A stretch of 64,000 bases of DNA, taken from the NCBI RefSeq assembly GCF_001280505.1, contig NZ_LBIO01000049.1, positions 62,001-126,000 on the forward strand, read 5' to 3'. The position numbers and the translations under genes were made by a program. How positions within the stretch are numbered: position 1 is the stretch's first letter; every line of letters begins with the position of its first letter. The notes beneath the pieces were generated by a model. The model was given only the letters and a program-made list of their open reading frames with translations, had not been told where the DNA came from and made no database searches. The DNA comes from Mangrovimonas sp. TPBH4. Its GTDB lineage: Bacteria > Bacteroidota > Bacteroidia > Flavobacteriales > Flavobacteriaceae. Shown in pieces: positions 49,050 through 57,327 of the stretch.

Positions 49050-50345
49050 CTATTCTGACAGCTTTCCTAAAAGTGGTTTGTAAAAAATTGCCAATAACAA
49101 TATATAGTACAACAGATAGTCAACAAAATGTGCCATTACCACTCCTTTTAAACCATAAACACTTATTAAATAAATACTCGCAAAATACAATAATGCAACA
49201 GAGAAAATTTCACTGAGCATATAACGCCATAGCATTTTTTTTGCCAAAAATTGATAGCTAACTACCATGGAAAGCACTTTTAGAAAATCACCCATAAGCT
49301 GCCAAAAAAACAATTCTTCTACCACAACGAATTCTTCGGTAAAGATAACTTTAACGATTAGGTTTCTAAGCAAATAAATAATGACAAGGCCCATACAAAA
49401 TATGGGCACGATAGTTTTATAAAAATTCCAAACTTCCTTTCTGAACTCCAAATTGGTGTGAATTGAAGCAAAACGCGGTAAAATATACAGCGTCACCAAA
49501 CTACTGATGAACATTAAATAATAATTGGAAATTCTCCCCATGGCCACCCAATATCCCGCCGATGCTTCTCCTAAATTATCAATGATATGATTTCTTATCA
49601 AAACAGATACCATTGGCAATACCGTAGCAGAAAATAAGGCCATGATTGAAAAAGCACTTAAATTTTTAATGCTAGAAAAACTCACTTTTTTAAATGAAAT
49701 AAAATTAACTCCCTTCCAAAATTTGGAAACACCCAAAAAAGTGATCAAACACAGTACAATTTCAACGGCCGCTATATATATCAAAGCTCCTTCAAGTTGA
49801 AATTTCCAAATAAGAATCCCGTTTATAACAACTCCAATAATATGTGAAAAAATGGTGATATAAAGCAGCTTCTTTTGTTTAGACAAGCCGTTTAATATTG
49901 AAAACACATATGTTTTCATAGTATAAAAAGGAATGGCAACAGCCAAAGTTCTTATAATATGAACATAGTTGTGCTGTGGTGTAAACAAAGCATCGTTTAT
50001 GTACTTTGCCTTAAAAAAGCAATAGGCAGCCACAGCCATAGAAGAAAGCAAAAACAAATAAAAGGTCGTTGAGATAGTTTTTCTCAACTCCTTAACATCA
50101 TCCTTGAACTCCGCTACATACTTAATAATACCATTATAAAGTCCAAGAGTAGAAAAGGCTTGAGTCGAGGTCATAAAATCCCTCAAGTTTCCAACCAGAG
50201 CCAAACCACTGGGTCCAACAAAAATGGCAATGAATTTTGAAGTAATAAATCCCGCCAGAACTTTAATAATTATGGCTACAGAATTTAAGGAAGCAATCTT
50301 AACAAGATGGTTCCCCTTAAAAAAAGATATTAGTTTCTGCTTCAT
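49050..50345 (-). CDS. wzx: Wzx-type lipid-linked oligosaccharide flippase, copy 2
   Basis: The 431-residue polytopic protein has about 12 helices of the MOP/PST superfamily, with an N-terminus SLNSVAIIIKVLAGFITSKFIA and a NYYLMFISSLVTLYILPRFASI region like WzxE O-antigen translocases. It flips undecaprenyl-linked units to the periplasm. It lies 17 bases after its paralogue, and the two match over most of their length, for example YYLMF..S..., YILPRF, EEF...E.LF.WQL.GDF.KVLS and QFLAKKM. Confidence 0.88.
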   Translation of the reverse strand: MKQKLISFFKGNHLVKIASLNSVAIIIKVLAGFITSKFIAIFVGPSGLALVGNLRDFMTSTQAFSTLGLYNGIIKYVAEFKDDVKELRKTISTTFYLFLLSSMAVAAYCFFKAKYINDALFTPQHNYVHIIRTLAVAIPFYTMKTYVFSILNGLSKQKKLLYITIFSHIIGVVINGILIWKFQLEGALIYIAAVEIVLCLITFLGVSKFWKGVNFISFKKVSFSSIKNLSAFSIMALFSATVLPMVSVLIRNHIIDNLGEASAGYWVAMGRISNYYLMFISSLVTLYILPRFASIHTNLEFRKEVWNFYKTIVPIFCMGLVIIYLLRNLIVKVIFTEEFVVVEELFFWQLMGDFLKVLSMVVSYQFLAKKMLWRYMLSEIFSVALLYFASIYLISVYGLKGVVMAHFVDYLLYYILLLAIFYKPLLGKLSE

Positions 50346-50362: not shown

Positions 50363-51694
50363 TCACAAATTATGGTCTTCTTCAGGTTTCTGTTCTCCGT
50401 TTTTATCGGCAACAATACCGAAAAGGGAACTTCCAAATATCAACAATATTACTCCGTAATGCATCAAGTAACTGGCAAAATGCCCCATTACGGCACCTTT
50501 CACACCAAAGTCATCTATTAAATATACACTGGAAAAATACAGCATCACCACTAAAAACAATTGGATAATGATAAAGTGAGTAAACATTTTCTTGGCCAGA
50601 AATTGAAATGCAATGACAAAGGATAGCACCTTGACAAAATCTCCTAACAACTGCCATAAAAACAAGCCTTCTACTGGCTGAAATTCTTCAGAGAAAATGA
50701 TATTAATCAAAAATGACCTTAAAAAATAAATAGCCACCAATCCTAATCCGAAGATTGGGATTATAGATTTATAAAAACTAAAAACCTCGGCCCGAAACTC
50801 CGCTTTATTATCTATTTCACTAAACCTTGGTAAAATATACAGTGACATTAAGGAATTGACGAACATTAAATAATAATCCGAAATCCGGTTCATGGCTTCC
50901 CAATAACCGGCTTCCTTCATACCAACTTCATGAATAATATAATTTCGAATTAAAATAGACACCAAAGGCAAAGCAAACGTAGACACTAATGCCATTAAGG
51001 TAAAAGGACTGAATTTCTTTAAAATTTCGAAATTGACGTTGGTGATTTTGATAGAGCCTACCAAACTTCTCTGATTCATAAAGCCCACAAAGGTTATCAA
51101 GAATATTAAGGAAGGTGCTATCACTGCCGAGATCAGTGCCCCGTCAATGTTGTTTTGGTAGATCAATAAAAGCGTAACTAATAGCCCCAATATTTGCCCA
51201 ATAATACTAATTACAAGCAGTATTTTAAATTTGGAAAAGCCGTTCATTATTGAAAAACTGAACATATTCAACGAATAGAACGGCAAGGCCAAAGCCATTA
51301 TTTTAATAATGTATGCGTAATTGTAAATGGGTGAAAATAAAAAGTCATTTATCGTATTTGCATTGTAATAACAAACAAATGCTATGAGCATAGTGGCTAT
51401 AAATCCAAAATAATAGGCCGAAGACAATGTTTGGCTGAGTTTAAGCGCATCGTTTTTAAACTCCGCGATATACTTTACCAAGCCTTTGTAAAACCCTAAA
51501 ATAGAAAATGACTGAACCGCACTTAGGAAGTTTCTAATGTTGCCAATAAGTGCCAAACCTTCTACACCAATAAAAATAGCAATTGCTTTGGAGGTAACAA
51601 TTCCTGCCAAAATCTTGGTAATGATCGTAGCCGAATTTAAATGGGCTACCTTAAATAAAACCTTTGTATTGATATAGTGCAGTAACTTTCTCAA
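50363..51694 (-). CDS. wzx: Wzx-type lipid-linked oligosaccharide flippase, copy 1
   Basis: This 443-residue polytopic protein is the closest paralogue of the adjacent flippase (HLNSATIITKILAGIVTSKAIA, DYYLMFVNSLMSLYILPRF, LWQLLGDFVKVLS). It opens with a TTG immediately after the fdtB stop, with no ATG that preserves the family N-terminus. Two neighbouring flippases are unusual; they might serve two repeat units or two lengths of the same unit, or one might have changed role. The last 30 residues are polar and specific to this copy. Confidence 0.87.
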   Translation of the reverse strand: MRKLLHYINTKVLFKVAHLNSATIITKILAGIVTSKAIAIFIGVEGLALIGNIRNFLSAVQSFSILGFYKGLVKYIAEFKNDALKLSQTLSSAYYFGFIATMLIAFVCYYNANTINDFLFSPIYNYAYIIKIMALALPFYSLNMFSFSIMNGFSKFKILLVISIIGQILGLLVTLLLIYQNNIDGALISAVIAPSLIFLITFVGFMNQRSLVGSIKITNVNFEILKKFSPFTLMALVSTFALPLVSILIRNYIIHEVGMKEAGYWEAMNRISDYYLMFVNSLMSLYILPRFSEIDNKAEFRAEVFSFYKSIIPIFGLGLVAIYFLRSFLINIIFSEEFQPVEGLFLWQLLGDFVKVLSFVIAFQFLAKKMFTHFIIIQLFLVVMLYFSSVYLIDDFGVKGAVMGHFASYLMHYGVILLIFGSSLFGIVADKNGEQKPEEDHNL

Positions 51695-52795
51695 TTAGTA
51701 GGCATTTAAGATATCAATTACACGGCTCACCTCTTTATCCTCCATAACGGGGCTCATCGGGATACTTATCACTTTTTGATGTATTTGATCGGTTAATGGC
51801 AGCGACAAGTTACAAAAATTTATCAAGGCTTTTTGACGATGTGGAGGCGTTGGGTAATGAATCAACCAACCAATACCGCTATCATCTAAATATTCTGAAA
51901 AATGATCCCTATTTTCAACCACTACCACAAACACATGGAACACATGATTATCGCTTCCATCGTAAAAAGGCAACTTTATTTTTGAATTGTTGATCTCGGA
52001 CAAATACCGGCGAGCAACACTTCGACGCCTTTCGTTGTCCCTTTCTAAATTTGGCAGTTTGACATTTAAAAACATGGCCTGCAATTCATCCATTCTGCTG
52101 TTATAGCCTACATACCCATTGACATATTTTTGCAGTCCGCCGTAGTTCCTCAAGGCCGAAATACAATTTGCCAACTCCGAATCATTTGTAACCACAGCAC
52201 CCGCATCCCCCAGAGCTCCTAAATTTTTACTCGGATAAAAGCTAAATCCAGCGGCATCCGACAAATTACCGGCTTTTATACCTTTTGAATTTATTGCACC
52301 ATGCGCTTGGGCAGCATCCTCGATTACCAACAAATCATTGAGACTAGCTAAAGAATTGATAGCATCCATGTCGGCCAATTGTCCATAAAGATGCACCACG
52401 AGAATTGCTTTTGTTTTGGGAGATATATGTTTTTCGATTTCTTCAATTGAAATATTATAAGTATTTCTATCTGGTTCCACAAAAACAGGAGTTAACCCAG
52501 CATGCAATACAGACAAAATACTAGCAATATAAGTGTTTGCTGGCACAATAACTTCATCTCCTTCCTTTAGTTTCCCCACTTCTATATAGCCCTTAAAAAT
52601 CAGAGTGAGCGCATCCAACCCATTCCCAACTCCTACACAGTGTTTCGCACCACAATATTCCGCGAAATTGGTTTCAAACTGTTCAACGCCATTTCCTAAA
52701 ATATAACAGCCTGTATCCAAAAACTGTTGAAATTCAACTTTGAATTTCTCCTCATATTCGGCATTTATTTTCTGTAGATCTAGGAATTTAATCAT
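51695..52795 (-). CDS. fdtB: DegT/DnrJ-family sugar aminotransferase, FdtB type
   Basis: The 366-residue PLP enzyme has the lysine in [13 protein letters not shown] (Lys190), the cofactor-binding Asp in [11 protein letters not shown] (Asp160) and the phosphate-site segment around [10 protein letters not shown]. With the FdtA-like isomerase it would form dTDP-3-amino-3,6-dideoxyhexose (Fuc3N or Qui3N). It overlaps the acyltransferase by four bases (ATGA), so the amine is probably acylated at once. Relatives include QdtB and DesV; which product forms is not decided by sequence. Confidence 0.9.
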
Positions 52796-53742
52796 GCTAA
52801 TTTCAAACTATATATTTCCTGAAGATAAAGATCACACCCCAACTCTTCCTTTTGTTTTAAGAGCCCCGGATTATATCCTTGTTCGAAGCTATCATCCATA
52901 ACGGTTCCCATAGAAAAATGGTGTTTCCCTTTTTCTTGGAAATGTTTTATTAAGTGTATGAACAAATAATCAAATGCCCGTAATTTTTCACCTTCTTTGG
53001 TAGTTGCTCCATATTGCGATTTTACGACCAATTCATTCTCAAATATGGTGATTCCAGCCAAAATTCTATCCTCATAAAAAATATCAAATTGCCTAATATT
53101 ATCAGGAAACCTCTCCCTTAACAGCTGAATCTCTTCTAAACTATGAACGGGTTTTGTTTCAAACCTACTTTGTAAACGTGGCTTTAATACTTCGTTCCAG
53201 AACAGAGAAAAGTCAGTGCTTTCTTTAATTACAAACCCCATATCACTATTTCGTTTGTAATGCTTGAGCTTCGTTTTATGAATTAATAACGGGCTAGCAT
53301 AATCAACGGCCAATACCATAAATGTCTTCACCAAACTGCCGCCTTTATTTTGAAACATAAAAGTCATTTCATTCGCTGCCGATTTGCAATAAAAAGAAGG
53401 CAAAGTTTTCACATTAAACTGTTTTATCCCTTGTTTTGACAAAAACTCCAAAATGACACTTATCATCTCGCTTACCTGCTCAAAACCTATATTGGACTCC
53501 AAAAGTAATCCTCCAAAGGTCAATCCCTGATGTGAATGCAATACTTCCCCAACCCTATTTCCCGGTAATACAGCTTTAAGAACACTATCTTTAAATACCA
53601 TAAGGGAAAAATCATGGAACCTATCACTATGATATTCCATAAAATTTCTATGAAATAAAAATGTAGAATTTTTTGCCTTAGCAACAAAAAGGTTCCAAAC
53701 ATCGAAGTCGTTTGGTGTATATAATCTTACAGTAAATTTCAA
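52792..53742 (-). CDS. FemAB/GNAT-like acyltransferase
   Basis: The 316-residue protein resembles FemAB-type double-GNAT acyltransferases: [19 protein letters not shown] at the start and [15 protein letters not shown] plus [28 protein letters not shown] at the end. In characterised Fuc3N/Qui3N pathways the acyltransferase (FdtC or QdtC) is a left-handed beta-helix; this one has no hexapeptide repeats. Tight overlap with fdtB makes it the probable N-acyltransferase of the amino sugar. The donor and acyl group are unknown. Confidence 0.75.
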
Positions 53743-53864: not shown

Positions 53865-54098
53865 TTAAGTTTTCCTTTTGAAGAATAAATAATAGAAGTT
53901 GATAAGCAGAATTGCTGCGTTGGTAACAATAATGGGCCATGCCGTCTGCAACATAAACCCATAAATTACAAACAATGCACACCCAACGGAATTAATAATG
54001 CGCAACTTCACCAAATCCTTCATGGTAAAAGACAGTAACAACCCAGCCGAGGCCAAATAACCCACCCATTCCGTAAAGCTCACTCCTAGGAATTCCAT
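53865..54098 (-). CDS. Small YgjV-like inner membrane protein
   Basis: From ATG 54098 it encodes 77 residues in about three helices: MEFLGVSFTEWVGYLASAGLL, then MKDLVKLRIINSVGCALFVIYG and the last TNAAILLINFYYLF. The pattern KLRIINSVGCALFVIYG matches the Imp-YgjV family of unknown function, sometimes misnamed uroporphyrinogen decarboxylase. A TTG opening 26 codons earlier is rejected because the family starts at the ATG. It lies between the sugar operon and the three-gene cassette upstream. Confidence 0.75.
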   Translation of the reverse strand: MEFLGVSFTEWVGYLASAGLLLSFTMKDLVKLRIINSVGCALFVIYGFMLQTAWPIIVTNAAILLINFYYLFFKRKT

Positions 54099-54188
54099 AA
54101 TCTTAAATTGATTGTTTAAGATAGTGAAAAAGTATGTATATAACACTACAACAATGCTTGTCAGCAAACTTATCAAAGAAAGTTCAAT

Positions 54189-55670
54189 TTACCTCTTTAT
54201 AAACACTGCTTCCCCCTCCTCATCAATATATTGATAAACACCAAAAGAGGCCCCTTCCTTAAGAACCACAAAACTGGTATCAGACTCCAAATTCTCCAAA
54301 TACTTTGGATTTTCACTAAGATAGGAAAACAGGATCCTAAATAGATTCACATTTGTTTTAAGCTCCTTATCATAATTCATTGCATTCTCAGGCCATTTTA
54401 CAGCTAGGGCCGTTGAAAAAATAGAATAAATCAAATTTCGGTTAGTTTGCTTTTCCTTACATTCCAACGTATAATCCATTCCAACAAATCCTCCATGGTC
54501 CGCCACAATTACAATTAAGGCATTTTCATCATGTGTTTGAATTAACTCTACCATTTCCTTTAGCCAGTCATTGGCAGACTTCAATTTTTCAAGATAGTTC
54601 AACCGCTCCTGCTCCTTTCCCAAGGATCGATTTTTGTAAGTTGTAATATGCCCAGGAGCAATTTTTTCTATAAAATAAAAATTAGGCTCATTGGTTTGAT
54701 TCTGCAAAGCATTTTCTAAATCAGCTTTTAGATCTTTTGTTATCTCAAAACCTCTTGCTAAAAATGACAGTTCATCTTGAGCTATATTGCAAAAATCATA
54801 TTGTAGTTTTGGTTTGTTAAGTAGTAAATAGGACTTCTCCAAAAGCAAAGACGTGTTATAGCCATTATTTTTAAAAACTGGGACCACAGCGTTTTGTCCT
54901 ACAATAATATCCCTTGCATTATAAAACTCATTTTCACCTTTTGGCGGGCTGTTGTAATAATGATGTTTCATTGCAAACATCGAAGAGTTGGAACTAAGTG
55001 TGGAGAAGTAATTACTTCTAAAACCTTCATAAAGCGTGAAACCATTCTCCTGTAAAAACCCCTCAAACTGGCTATTATCAAAATTATAACAACCTCTTTT
55101 AAGCTCTTCAAAATTAGGATAGCCATCTGGTTGAATTACATACACATTTGGTTTTCTTGTAAACTTGACTTCTTCAATATTATCAGGTAAGCTCATCCAT
55201 GTTTTATCGTAAGAAACATGTCTTTGAATATGCGTTATTAATTTTGGTACTGCCAACAAGATCAATACAAATTGAATGACCAATATTTTCTTGAAATGTT
55301 TTTGAAGTAAAAAACCCAACCCCAAAGCGGCCATGGTGACCAAAAGATATCTCTTTTTACCAACACCATAAGAACTTAGTATCATTAGCCCTCCAAAAAG
55401 CACAAAATTGAGAACAGGCAAGACATAACCAAAAAATCTTTGCGGTAATACTCTTTTGAAAAACAATAAAGCAATCTGAAAAACAGCAATAGGGACAAAA
55501 AGAAACCACAACACAAATTGTAAAAATTGCCCCCAAGAATTTACCAATGAAAAATTATTGTTGTAGTAATAAAGCAAAGGGTACAATCCTGCTCCTAATG
55601 CGCTTATTATTGGATATTGTTTATCGTTGGTGGTAAATTCTATTAACCGTTCCCTTAATTTATTTGGCAT
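54189..55670 (-). CDS. Membrane-anchored sulfatase/phosphoethanolamine-transferase-like enzyme
   Basis: This 493-residue protein has five N-terminal transmembrane helices and a large outer domain of the alkaline-phosphatase fold: PDGY (181-184) and ADHGG (390-394) hold the metal acids, with a Ser/Thr-rich segment (about 223-230) as the likely nucleophile and APGHI (338-342) nearby. The layout fits LtaS/EptA-type transferases that add a phospho-substituent to a glycan or lipid. It overlaps the methyltransferase by 11 bases. Substrate is unknown. Confidence 0.8.
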   Translation of the reverse strand: MPNKLRERLIEFTTNDKQYPIISALGAGLYPLLYYYNNNFSLVNSWGQFLQFVLWFLFVPIAVFQIALLFFKRVLPQRFFGYVLPVLNFVLFGGLMILSSYGVGKKRYLLVTMAALGLGFLLQKHFKKILVIQFVLILLAVPKLITHIQRHVSYDKTWMSLPDNIEEVKFTRKPNVYVIQPDGYPNFEELKRGCYNFDNSQFEGFLQENGFTLYEGFRSNYFSTLSSNSSMFAMKHHYYNSPPKGENEFYNARDIIVGQNAVVPVFKNNGYNTSLLLEKSYLLLNKPKLQYDFCNIAQDELSFLARGFEITKDLKADLENALQNQTNEPNFYFIEKIAPGHITTYKNRSLGKEQERLNYLEKLKSANDWLKEMVELIQTHDENALIVIVADHGGFVGMDYTLECKEKQTNRNLIYSIFSTALAVKWPENAMNYDKELKTNVNLFRILFSYLSENPKYLENLESDTSFVVLKEGASFGVYQYIDEEGEAVFIKR

Positions 55671-57048
55671 TCTTTGATTTTAACAAATACATGATTCGAT
55701 GCGAATTGGCAATCACTTCCTTTCTCTCCAAAGTGAAGTAGTGCATAAACGCCTTTTCAAAATTTTCTTGATTATAAAAATCAAAATGTCCCTTGAATTC
55801 AGATTTAGCATTTAACAGTCGTTGCACCCATGAGTCTTCTCTTTTGGGAAATTCAATAATTAGATAGTTGGAAAAAGCAGCAAAAAACTCAGCCGACTTG
55901 TTAAATGGCACATTCCCTGAAAGAGATATATGATGTATCACCGCCAAAGCCAAGGTAATATCCGGAGAAAATTCCTGTAGCCTTTCCCTAAATGAAAATC
56001 GTTCATCATTATTAAACCCAATAGATGCCGATGGATTTAAAACATCTTGAACAAAAGGAGTCATATAACCTTCCTTGCTCCTTTTAACCTCCCTGTAATT
56101 GTTGTCTACTGCGTTGTTATCAATATCACATACCAAAGCCTGCTCCAGCCTAACATCAATTTTTCTAACAAATGTTCCATCATTCCCGCCAACATCTATA
56201 AGTGTTTTGGCTTTGTTTTCCTTTACCCAAGCAATCACTATTTTTTCCTTTTGTAGAAAGGCATCACTTGTATAATTGGTTTTGTTATAATAATCACCCC
56301 ATTCGCTAGCCTCCTTAAGTGTCAACCTCTTAATATATCCGTAAAGACTTTTAATTATTTTTTTTTGAGCAGCTTTGGATAATGTGCCAGACTTAACCTC
56401 CCCTTTATAATCTTCACTATGCTTATCTTCATATTTAGATAACAAATGAATGTTTGAGTATAAAAACGGTGAAAGCTTCGTTTTTCCTGGCAACATTGAC
56501 GATAATATCTTGATAGGAATCCCATCAATAAAACTATGCATCAATTTCAAGGATTGCGCTCCATGATAATGGGCTAAAACCAATGGCCCAAAGAAATGAC
56601 TAATAAATTGTTTATACGCCCGCCAAGGAGAATTATCTTGATAAAAATCGAAAGACAATGTATCTATAAAAATGGCTTTGCCCTTATGAAAAGTTACATT
56701 AAATGCAGTGGCGTCCTTTAGCGAAAAATCATGGTCCAAACAAAATTTCTGCAGCTTTAAGGTTAAAAGAGCTGCTTCCTTATATTGATTGAAACTCCAT
56801 TCATAGGGATATGTTACAAAAGGAATAAATTCAGGCTGGATAACAACTCCTGTATTGTCTTCCGTAATTTCCTTGTGAGAAATCAACAGCCCTGCTTTGA
56901 TTAATTTCTGATAAAAACCAGACTCCTTTAATGCTTTATATTGCTTAAAATAAAGAGGAGATATCTGTCTTTTTAAAATATTTCCCTCTGTAAAAACATA
57001 CCCAGAAGGGTCTCTGAAGGAAGAAGAGTGTTGAATCTTATCTGTCAC
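55660..57048 (-). CDS. NoeA-like fusion: kinase-like domain plus SAM methyltransferase
   Basis: The 462-residue protein has an N-terminal region (1-150) with KDATAFN (Asp112, Asn117) followed 12 residues later by the acid in IFIDTLSF (Asp129), spacing like the catalytic and metal residues of kinase-fold enzymes. The C-terminal half is a class I methyltransferase with the S-adenosylmethionine motif LIDVGGNDGTF (283-293). Relatives are annotated NoeA-like nodulation methyltransferases. It overlaps the genes on both sides by 11 bases. Acceptor is unknown; a glycan or glycolipid is the best guess. Confidence 0.75.
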   Translation of the reverse strand: MTDKIQHSSSFRDPSGYVFTEGNILKRQISPLYFKQYKALKESGFYQKLIKAGLLISHKEITEDNTGVVIQPEFIPFVTYPYEWSFNQYKEAALLTLKLQKFCLDHDFSLKDATAFNVTFHKGKAIFIDTLSFDFYQDNSPWRAYKQFISHFFGPLVLAHYHGAQSLKLMHSFIDGIPIKILSSMLPGKTKLSPFLYSNIHLLSKYEDKHSEDYKGEVKSGTLSKAAQKKIIKSLYGYIKRLTLKEASEWGDYYNKTNYTSDAFLQKEKIVIAWVKENKAKTLIDVGGNDGTFVRKIDVRLEQALVCDIDNNAVDNNYREVKRSKEGYMTPFVQDVLNPSASIGFNNDERFSFRERLQEFSPDITLALAVIHHISLSGNVPFNKSAEFFAAFSNYLIIEFPKREDSWVQRLLNAKSEFKGHFDFYNQENFEKAFMHYFTLERKEVIANSHRIMYLLKSKNAK

Positions 57049-57250
57049 TATTCTCGGTATTTTCTATATCCTTGTCAGTAACATCTATATCGTCAAAAAG
57101 CTCTTCATTTTTATCCTGTGAAAAACCAAAGAGTGATTTGATCTTAAACATCAAATTTTTAGAAAACAAGACAACACCAGCAACTGCAGCAATGACAGCT
57201 TGTACAACCATCGCCCCTAAACCAGGATCAAAATATAGAAAATGTACCAT
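57038..57250 (-). CDS. Small single-span membrane protein of the cassette
   Basis: This 70-residue protein has one helix pair or hairpin (DPGLGAMVVQAVIAAVAGVVLF), a basic stretch (KNLMFKIKSLFG) and an acidic tail (DIDVTDKDIENTENSD). It starts at ATG 57250 and overlaps the methyltransferase by 11 bases. It may anchor the methyltransferase at the membrane, an inference from position and topology. No family is recognised. Confidence 0.7.
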   Translation of the reverse strand: MVHFLYFDPGLGAMVVQAVIAAVAGVVLFSKNLMFKIKSLFGFSQDKNEELFDDIDVTDKDIENTENSDR

Positions 57251-57295: not shown

Positions 57296-57327
57296 AAAAA
57301 GCGAAACCTTTAAAGGTTTCGCTTTTT
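57296..57327. terminator. Bidirectional terminator after typA
   Basis: AAAAAGCGAAACC (57296-57308) pairs perfectly with GGTTTCGCTTTTT (57315-57327) around TTTAAA; the centre is itself palindromic. It lies 27 bases past the typA stop and separates it from the glycan cassette. Confidence 0.92.

Follow-up and report, generated by a model that had tools for sequence, protein, structure and literature searches.

A NoeA-type three-gene cassette beside a Wzx-type polysaccharide locus of Mangrovimonas and its possible role in phosphate methylation at the cell envelope

Introduction

The genes noeA and noeB, which lie downstream of nodL, have been known since 1995 as host-range genes of the alfalfa symbiont, and their chemistry has been described as a possible or hypothesised modification of Nod factors. 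The genetics of both genes in Sinorhizobium meliloti were reportedly worked out by Ardourel in 1995. A truncated noeA has also been recorded in a nodulation-deficient S. meliloti strain (PMC4053727). Here, a computational analysis is presented of a cassette of three genes related to noeA/noeB, located at positions 54189-57250 on the minus strand of a 64,000-nucleotide stretch (the window) of the Mangrovimonas sp. TPBH4 genome (contig NZ_LBIO01000049.1, positions 62,001 to 126,000). The cassette encodes a small membrane protein, a fusion of a kinase-like and a methyltransferase half, and a membrane enzyme of the alkaline-phosphatase (AP) superfamily. Its gene order, co-occurrence, residue conservation, predicted folds and a profile match to WbdD point, with a confidence only a little above even, to a NoeA/NoeB-type envelope-modification operon that would combine phosphorylation, methylation of the phosphate and handling of the product outside by the AP-fold enzyme, with the small protein as a link.

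The family has been surveyed before. Cited reports are referred to here through excerpts of their text; in those of a 2022 survey (PMC9758233), the family was defined from Lani_1194 of Legionella anisa, 94% of some two thousand homologues combined kinase and methyltransferase, and of 816 neighbourhoods 65% contained Lani_1193 and 38% Lani_1195. An AP fold was predicted for Lani_1195 and NoeB, the kinase active site was reported to be conserved in the Lani_1194 family, and the family was proposed either to decorate secreted signals or to act on the envelope. That survey already covers this type of fusion and the genes around it, so the fusion and its setting are not new, and the statement in an initial annotation of the window that no characterised system of this composition was known does not stand, given NoeA/NoeB and the Lani_1194 family.

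Results

The fusion gene (55660..57048, minus strand, GTG start) encodes a protein of 462 amino acids that aligned with NoeA at 31% identity over residues 8-454 (about 450 residues) in a BLASTP search (E 4e-58). A tblastn comparison of the fusion with plasmids recovered 65 records, 57 of them from Sinorhizobium. On plasmid pT173b of Ensifer canadensis the genes run nodL, a 71-aa hypothetical protein, noeA and noeB, and the same order was found in Rhizobium sp. T1473. Because the fusion is a full-length NoeA homologue and rhizobial plasmids share the gene order, the trio is not an orphan set. The order small gene, fusion gene, AP-fold gene also recurs in Novosphingobium PP1Y, next to mannose and polysaccharide-export genes, in Singulisphaera and in an unannotated Gemmatirosa record; it differs on a deltaproteobacterial plasmid. 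Judged by sequence and gene order, the trio is a NoeA-type cassette in which the AP gene is placed at the NoeB position. The window AP protein and NoeB both exceed the PF00884 cut-off; a further comparison based on AP profile A5 is circular because that profile contains the L104 and NoeB proteins.

The cassette lies between typA and a Wzx-type polysaccharide locus. Following typA and an intrinsic-terminator-like hairpin, the open reading frame (ORF) list gives the small membrane protein gene (57038..57250, 70 aa), the fusion gene and the AP gene (54189..55670, 493 aa), all on the minus strand. These coordinates confirm the 11-base overlap at each of the two junctions that had been noted initially. 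The terminator noted initially beside the trio was recovered by folding-energy z score as a strong hairpin with a U-run (57296..57327, no strand assigned; folding energy -17.9 kcal/mol; z -5.4 for the minus and -3.95 for the plus strand). A simple terminator scan of the window did not list this hairpin; as a guess, its U-run may be paired within the stem. Pfam placed the third protein in PF00884 (Sulfatase; 28.7 bits against a cut-off of 25) and the fusion, weakly and below the family cut-off, among methyltransferases, and gave no family for the small protein or the N-terminal half of the fusion.

Co-occurrence of the three genes was examined in a scan of genome_contigs covering 84,980 species, which gave at least 593 pattern matches, at least 587 of them fusion relatives. 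The counts of related loci given here refer to the best 80 of these relatives (55-93% identity), which by title are nearly all from flavobacteria or other Bacteroidetes, with one labelled Rokubacteria; two overlapping loci, L010 and L011, represent one gene. The closest named relative among the matches listed was from Mangrovimonas (93% identity). The small gene lies directly upstream of the fusion in 79/80 loci and the AP-fold gene directly downstream in 78/80. The locus scored as having no small gene directly upstream (L050) has the order small-AP-fusion-AP-AP, with the small gene 1.6 kb upstream, and the two counted as lacking the AP gene (L086 and L088) have none within flanks of about 6.0 kb and 3.2 kb, respectively. 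The trio thus co-occurs widely, and the lack of co-occurrence that had been named at the outset as evidence against a joint system was not observed.

There is one fusion per locus, yet AP-fold genes stand in tandem (two or more) in 22/80 loci. The sole true run of four follows the fusion in L066 (7439-13339); L037, in which the first AP gene is in pieces, is included among the 22 and is not a true run of four. Close spacing or overlap of the genes is the rule, but an overlap of exactly 11 bases at both junctions was shared by only 4/80 relatives and was rejected as a signature; the junction gaps were computed from the first possible start codon, which inflates the overlaps at the first junction. 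Two rows were set aside, an 879-aa ORF in L019 with a profile match and a 730-aa ORF in L111. Of the 72 loci with at least 2.5 kb of upstream sequence, 66 have typA upstream in the same orientation, and of the 70 in which the downstream flank reaches at least 4.5 kb, 52 have a co-directional FemAB homologue there.

Among 60 relative genomes (that of the window included), the fusion was found in seven, the small protein in the same seven (E below 1e-17), and the AP protein in these seven and in G311, where it sits at a contig end of a fragmented assembly. Three further weak matches to the small protein (E about 0.004, in G301, G322 and G341) were not counted. Fisher's test gave 3e-9 for fusion and small protein and 2e-8 for fusion and AP protein, figures that overstate independence because three of the seven genomes belong to one genus. 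About 10 kb separate the AP gene of G306 from the small gene and the fusion. In a phylum sample of 296 genomes the fusion was present in ten; a profile search returned 11, one of which (G109) has the methyltransferase half only. The small gene was in the cluster in nine of the ten fusion-bearing genomes (in G253 with an AP gene in between), and an AP-superfamily gene adjoins the fusion in at least seven. A single-sequence search with the AP protein matched in 2 of the 296 genomes, a result that is not taken as absence because this query is insensitive across families.

The C-terminal half of the fusion (about 247-462) is a class I S-adenosylmethionine (SAM) methyltransferase. Eight residues, R27, D112, N117, D129, Y253, H372, H373 and R451, are invariant in an alignment of 19/19 diverse members that are 26-94% identical to the window protein. 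When the family profile was compared with 177,635 PDB sequences, WbdD was the best match (E 7.7e-6), and it was again first when the profile of the methyltransferase half was used (E 1.3e-6). WbdD phosphorylates a terminal mannose and then methylates that phosphate, for which H132, H133, R203 and Y16 are needed (PMC3482155). In the profile alignment H132/H133 fall on the invariant H372/H373 of the fusion; WbdD numbering carries a uniform 13-residue offset between the PDB construct and the paper. Y253 and R451 are invariant candidates for Y16 and R203, and Y253 matches Y16 provided that the aligned range holds no gap there. In the fold comparison, WbdD residues 10-221 superposed on residues 247-462 of the model (Z 16.2, rmsd 2.9 Å, 185 residues); the phosphate-methylating methylphosphate capping enzyme MePCE (6dcc, Z 17.2) and BCDIN3D (6l8u, Z 17.1), a phosphate methyltransferase, scored slightly higher, and the capping enzyme entry 6dcb was also in the tied top. 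The ranking is not decisive, as all 50 rows shown lie between Z 16.1 and Z 17.6.

The N-terminal half (about 1-215) is kinase-like. The D-x4-N...D pattern at 112, 117 and 129 that had been picked out initially is present, invariant in the family and, in the predicted structure (pLDDT 87), placed as a kinase catalytic loop and metal aspartate: D112 lies just past a strand (108-110), D129 just past a hairpin (118-127), and a long helix (86-105) runs ahead of both. In this model, the order of elements is that of a kinase C-lobe. A second stretch of the profile alignment sets WbdD D351, N356 and D369 in register with D112, N117 and D129; in WbdD, D351 is needed for the kinase, and N356 and D369 bind metal (PMC3482155).

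Several results weigh against a NoeA/NoeB-type operon with WbdD-like chemistry. The WbdD kinase stretch scores -1.0 bits and is not significant by itself, a PDB search with the N-terminal profile came back empty at E 10 or better, and hhalign probabilities to seven protein-kinase and nine aminoglycoside phosphotransferase (APH) sequences from related genomes were 0.1% and 3.6%. Shuffled-column controls reached 1.3% and a kinase-APH positive control 90%; the alignments to both profiles nevertheless set catalytic loop on catalytic loop. Pfam on the 19 members returned methyltransferase and stray families and no kinase (25 of 27 families listed). On the methyltransferase side, the equivalence of R451 and R203 is an unconfirmed candidate, the fold-comparison list covers just residues 247-462 with WbdD among ties at Z 16.2, Foldseek places WbdD 30th with other methyltransferases above it, and the window fusion alone misses WbdD in a phmmer search, which gave two weak matches. 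His pairs are also found in other methyltransferases, such as NodS (PMC3482155). Finally, the window AP protein matched NoeB in hhalign at a weak 1.9%. No kinase row appears in the fold-comparison list of the whole fusion model, which shows nothing either way because matches to the methyltransferase half take up the whole list. The kinase fold is thus suggested by the motif, the predicted topology and published modelling, the direct tests being weak or negative.

These results bear on another explanation, in which the N-terminal half is a pseudokinase or glycan-binding domain, the methyltransferase acts on a sugar hydroxyl or carboxylate, and the AP partner, working independently of the fusion, attaches the head group of a phospholipid, for instance phosphoethanolamine or phosphoglycerol. 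EptA, which uses phosphatidylethanolamine, offers a parallel for such a partner. The explanation also draws on the lack of kinase Pfam families among the matches listed for the 19 members and of any PDB sequence match to the N-terminal half, and on the WbdD of serotype O8, which has no kinase and methylates a hydroxyl (PMC3482155). However, a conserved kinase active site has been reported for the family (PMC9758233), and D112, N117, D129 and R27 are invariant in all 19 diverse members. Most pseudokinases lack such invariant catalytic residues, and this explanation is considered rather unlikely.

The AP-fold protein was modelled with a pLDDT of 92 as five long N-terminal helices, read from the model, followed by a catalytic domain. 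The best Foldseek matches were full-length YejM/PbgA, MCR-1 and EptA. The catalytic domain superposed on YejM with Z 22.1 (6vat_A, rmsd 3.3 Å over 276 residues), on EptC with Z 21.0, on LtaS with Z 19.1 and on sulfatases with Z up to 21.1; sequence identity to these neighbours is near 12%. The initial annotation of a phosphotransferase fold is therefore right at the level of fold, which true sulfatases share with nearly as high scores. Sulfatases carry a formylglycine-type nucleophile motif, C/S-x-P-x-R; this motif is absent from the window protein, whose nucleophile region reads S-T-L-S-S-N. The protein alone had no match among PDB sequences, and AP profile A3 gave weak sulfatase matches and one stray guanylate kinase.

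D182, T224, H341, D391 and H392 form the candidate active site. In 28 flavobacterial and 16 diverse sequences, D182 and D391 are present throughout (28/28 and 16/16) and residue 224 is Thr or Ser in all. Residue 392 is His in 28/28 flavobacterial and 14/16 diverse sequences and Glu in 2/16, and H341 is present in 28/28 flavobacterial sequences, with a His one alignment column earlier in 12/16 diverse ones. The spacing D182-T224-H341-D391 (42, 117, 50) is close to that of E263-T307-H422-D481 in Listeria LtaS (44, 115, 59), an enzyme that takes phosphatidylglycerol and keeps its head group on the threonine (PMC4192460); this use of phosphatidylglycerol favours the independent head-group addition described above. 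The third protein looks like an LtaS/EptA-type extracytoplasmic phosphotransferase in its predicted fold, in keeping with the initial suggestion that it acts outside.

The AP-fold enzyme might instead have an editing function outside the cell, trimming or removing a cap as a phosphodiesterase or phosphatase. YejM, a near structural neighbour, has been reported to be a phosphatase (PMC7576196). The five N-terminal helices and active-site residues nevertheless resemble those of the transferases LtaS and EptA, as does the residue spacing that of Listeria LtaS, and the two or more tandem AP genes per fusion in 22/80 loci fit several acceptors better. Many members of the AP superfamily are hydrolases; on balance, an editing enzyme is held to be unlikely.

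The small protein has a Y-x-D-P-G-x-G motif followed by one hydrophobic segment and a charged tail, and matched no Pfam or NCBIfam family. Y6, D8 and Q17 are invariant in 20/20 relatives from several phyla. In 7/20 the Y comes right after a signal-peptide-like stretch ending in AHA or AYA (by eye), which suggests from sequence that the motif faces outward; two of these seven relatives are from the same phylum.

Directly 3' of the trio lies a SemiSWEET-like small membrane protein gene (53865-54176, minus strand; weak NCBIfam match). The adjoining polysaccharide locus, also on the minus strand, starts with a FemAB/GNAT-like gene (52792..53742; weak Pfam/NCBIfam matches) and continues with a DegT-type aminotransferase gene (51695-52795; Pfam, synteny) and two Wzx-like flippase genes (50363-51694, named by eye and synteny; 49050-50345, Pfam and synteny). 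The cassette is syntenic with the FemAB, DegT and Wzx genes.

Other arrangements were seen in single loci. In a relative from another family (L114, 5857-11645) an M42-peptidase-like gene (by eye) is followed by small, AP, fusion and AP genes, and such a peptidase-like gene also precedes the cassette in L003/L115, L004 and L007. In the glycosyltransferase locus L112 the gene immediately after the trio's AP gene resembles adenylylsulfate kinase (56-694, by eye). On two IMG/VR contigs that have a Zot/protein-I-like gene, a NoeA-like fusion is followed by an AP-fold protein (coordinates: L103, 4998-7236; L104, 2706-5533; L135, 5760-5978). The AP-fold protein is cut by the contig end in L103, one of the two contigs has a coat-protein-like ORF (by eye), and the small gene was not seen on either. 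An inovirus-like phage thus seems to carry the fusion/AP pair, which perhaps alters the host surface.

Discussion

In an envelope-modification operon of the kind favoured here, the kinase half of the fusion would work at the inner face of the inner membrane, phosphorylating a hydroxyl group of a lipid or lipid-linked glycan, and the methyltransferase half would methylate this phosphate to a methyl phosphodiester, as WbdD does. By converting a phosphate monoester to a methyl diester, the fusion would supply a phosphodiester substrate of the kind used by LtaS. The five-helix AP-fold enzyme would then handle the phosphodiester outside through a covalent phospho-threonine, most likely by transfer to a surface glycan, and the small protein may link the partners at the membrane. 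In a Wzx-type locus export would not require a cytosolic cap, so a periplasmic transferase would fit better. If the proposal is true, NoeA/NoeB gain a chemistry, the question reduces to phosphorus NMR, and a widespread envelope modification, with at least 587 related places, is identified that Pfam and NCBIfam leave unnamed.

A more specific version, in which the fusion makes an X-P-OMe donor on a lipid or polyprenol carrier and the AP-fold enzyme moves methyl phosphate to envelope glycans, is possible but doubtful. If true, it would define a new class of extracytoplasmic methylphosphate transferase, comparable to LtaS for glycerol phosphate and EptA for phosphoethanolamine, and would explain why one fusion often serves two to four tandem AP-fold enzymes.

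The initial annotation had proposed a phosphate-methyl cap as in some O-antigen chain-length control enzymes. The cap chemistry remains plausible and has gained support, WbdD being the best PDB profile match; chain-length control is not borne out for the window, as no coiled-coil ruler is present in the 462-residue model (read from the model, not by a coiled-coil program) and no Wzm or Wzt was seen by eye among the ORFs at 48-64 kb. Elsewhere, a NoeA-like fusion does sit beside such transporters: in G222 (L108, 7293-10867) it directly follows genes for Wzm and for a Wzt that carries a Wzt_C domain and precedes glycosyltransferases, with nucleotide-sugar genes (by eye) nearby and neither small nor AP neighbours. 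Given this setting, at least one branch of the family sits at the position of WbdD. Terminated O antigens exported by ABC transporters have this setting, and the carbohydrate-binding module of such a Wzt recognises the terminated O antigen (PMC11231755).

It has also been proposed for NoeA/NoeB and Nod factors that a secreted signal is modified, and the window trio could likewise act on a lipochitooligosaccharide-like signal. The standing of noeA/noeB as host-range genes downstream of nodL, with a hypothesised Nod factor modification, speaks for this, but homologues occur in many genomes without known nodulation and several of the loci are polysaccharide loci, and such a role seems very improbable here. 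A NodA search of the window's genome gave no match, and the control genomes likewise gave none. Among the matches listed, literature naming noeA, mostly outside subscription journals, held no link to methyl phosphate, and literature on related terms held nothing direct. A text match to 'noea' in PMC2247475 proved to be the plant Medicago noeana, and PMC13390465 concerns, in its excerpts, a different system.

The closest described system is the noeA/noeB operon at nod box n5 of S. meliloti, which has the same three-gene order as the window trio, with a small YLDPGTGS protein directly upstream and an AP-superfamily gene directly downstream. In S. meliloti, however, nodL adjoins the operon, whereas the window trio has no adjacent nodL and sits between typA and a Wzx-type locus, and the similarity of its AP protein to NoeB is distant. 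The Lani_1194 family is that of the window fusion through its stated NoeA homology; it shares the kinase-then-methyltransferase order, and its neighbours are conserved, on the same strand and include one AP-fold protein, as in the window. Where its authors proposed signals or the envelope, in the excerpted text, the reading favoured here is that a phosphate on an envelope glycan or lipid is methylated.

LtaS, EptA, MCR-1 and YejM share with the window AP protein the fold, the five N-terminal helices, a threonine nucleophile and D/H metal residues; unlike theirs, its gene often has tandem paralogues, next to one for a kinase-methyltransferase. WbdD of E. coli O9a is, like the fusion, a bifunctional kinase and methyltransferase with aligned catalytic residues, and is its best PDB profile match. 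In WbdD, however, the methyltransferase is N-terminal and the kinase C-terminal, a long coiled-coil ruler is present where the window fusion model has no long C-terminal helix, and the partners differ. With the domain order reversed and the ruler absent, the window fusion is not a WbdD, though it probably works like one. ORF6, the Klebsiella O7 terminator, is a further methyltransferase-kinase that makes a terminal methylphosphate (PMC11231755); like the NoeA-type fusion it joins a methyltransferase to a kinase, and its kinase is unlike that of WbdD in sequence and predicted structure.

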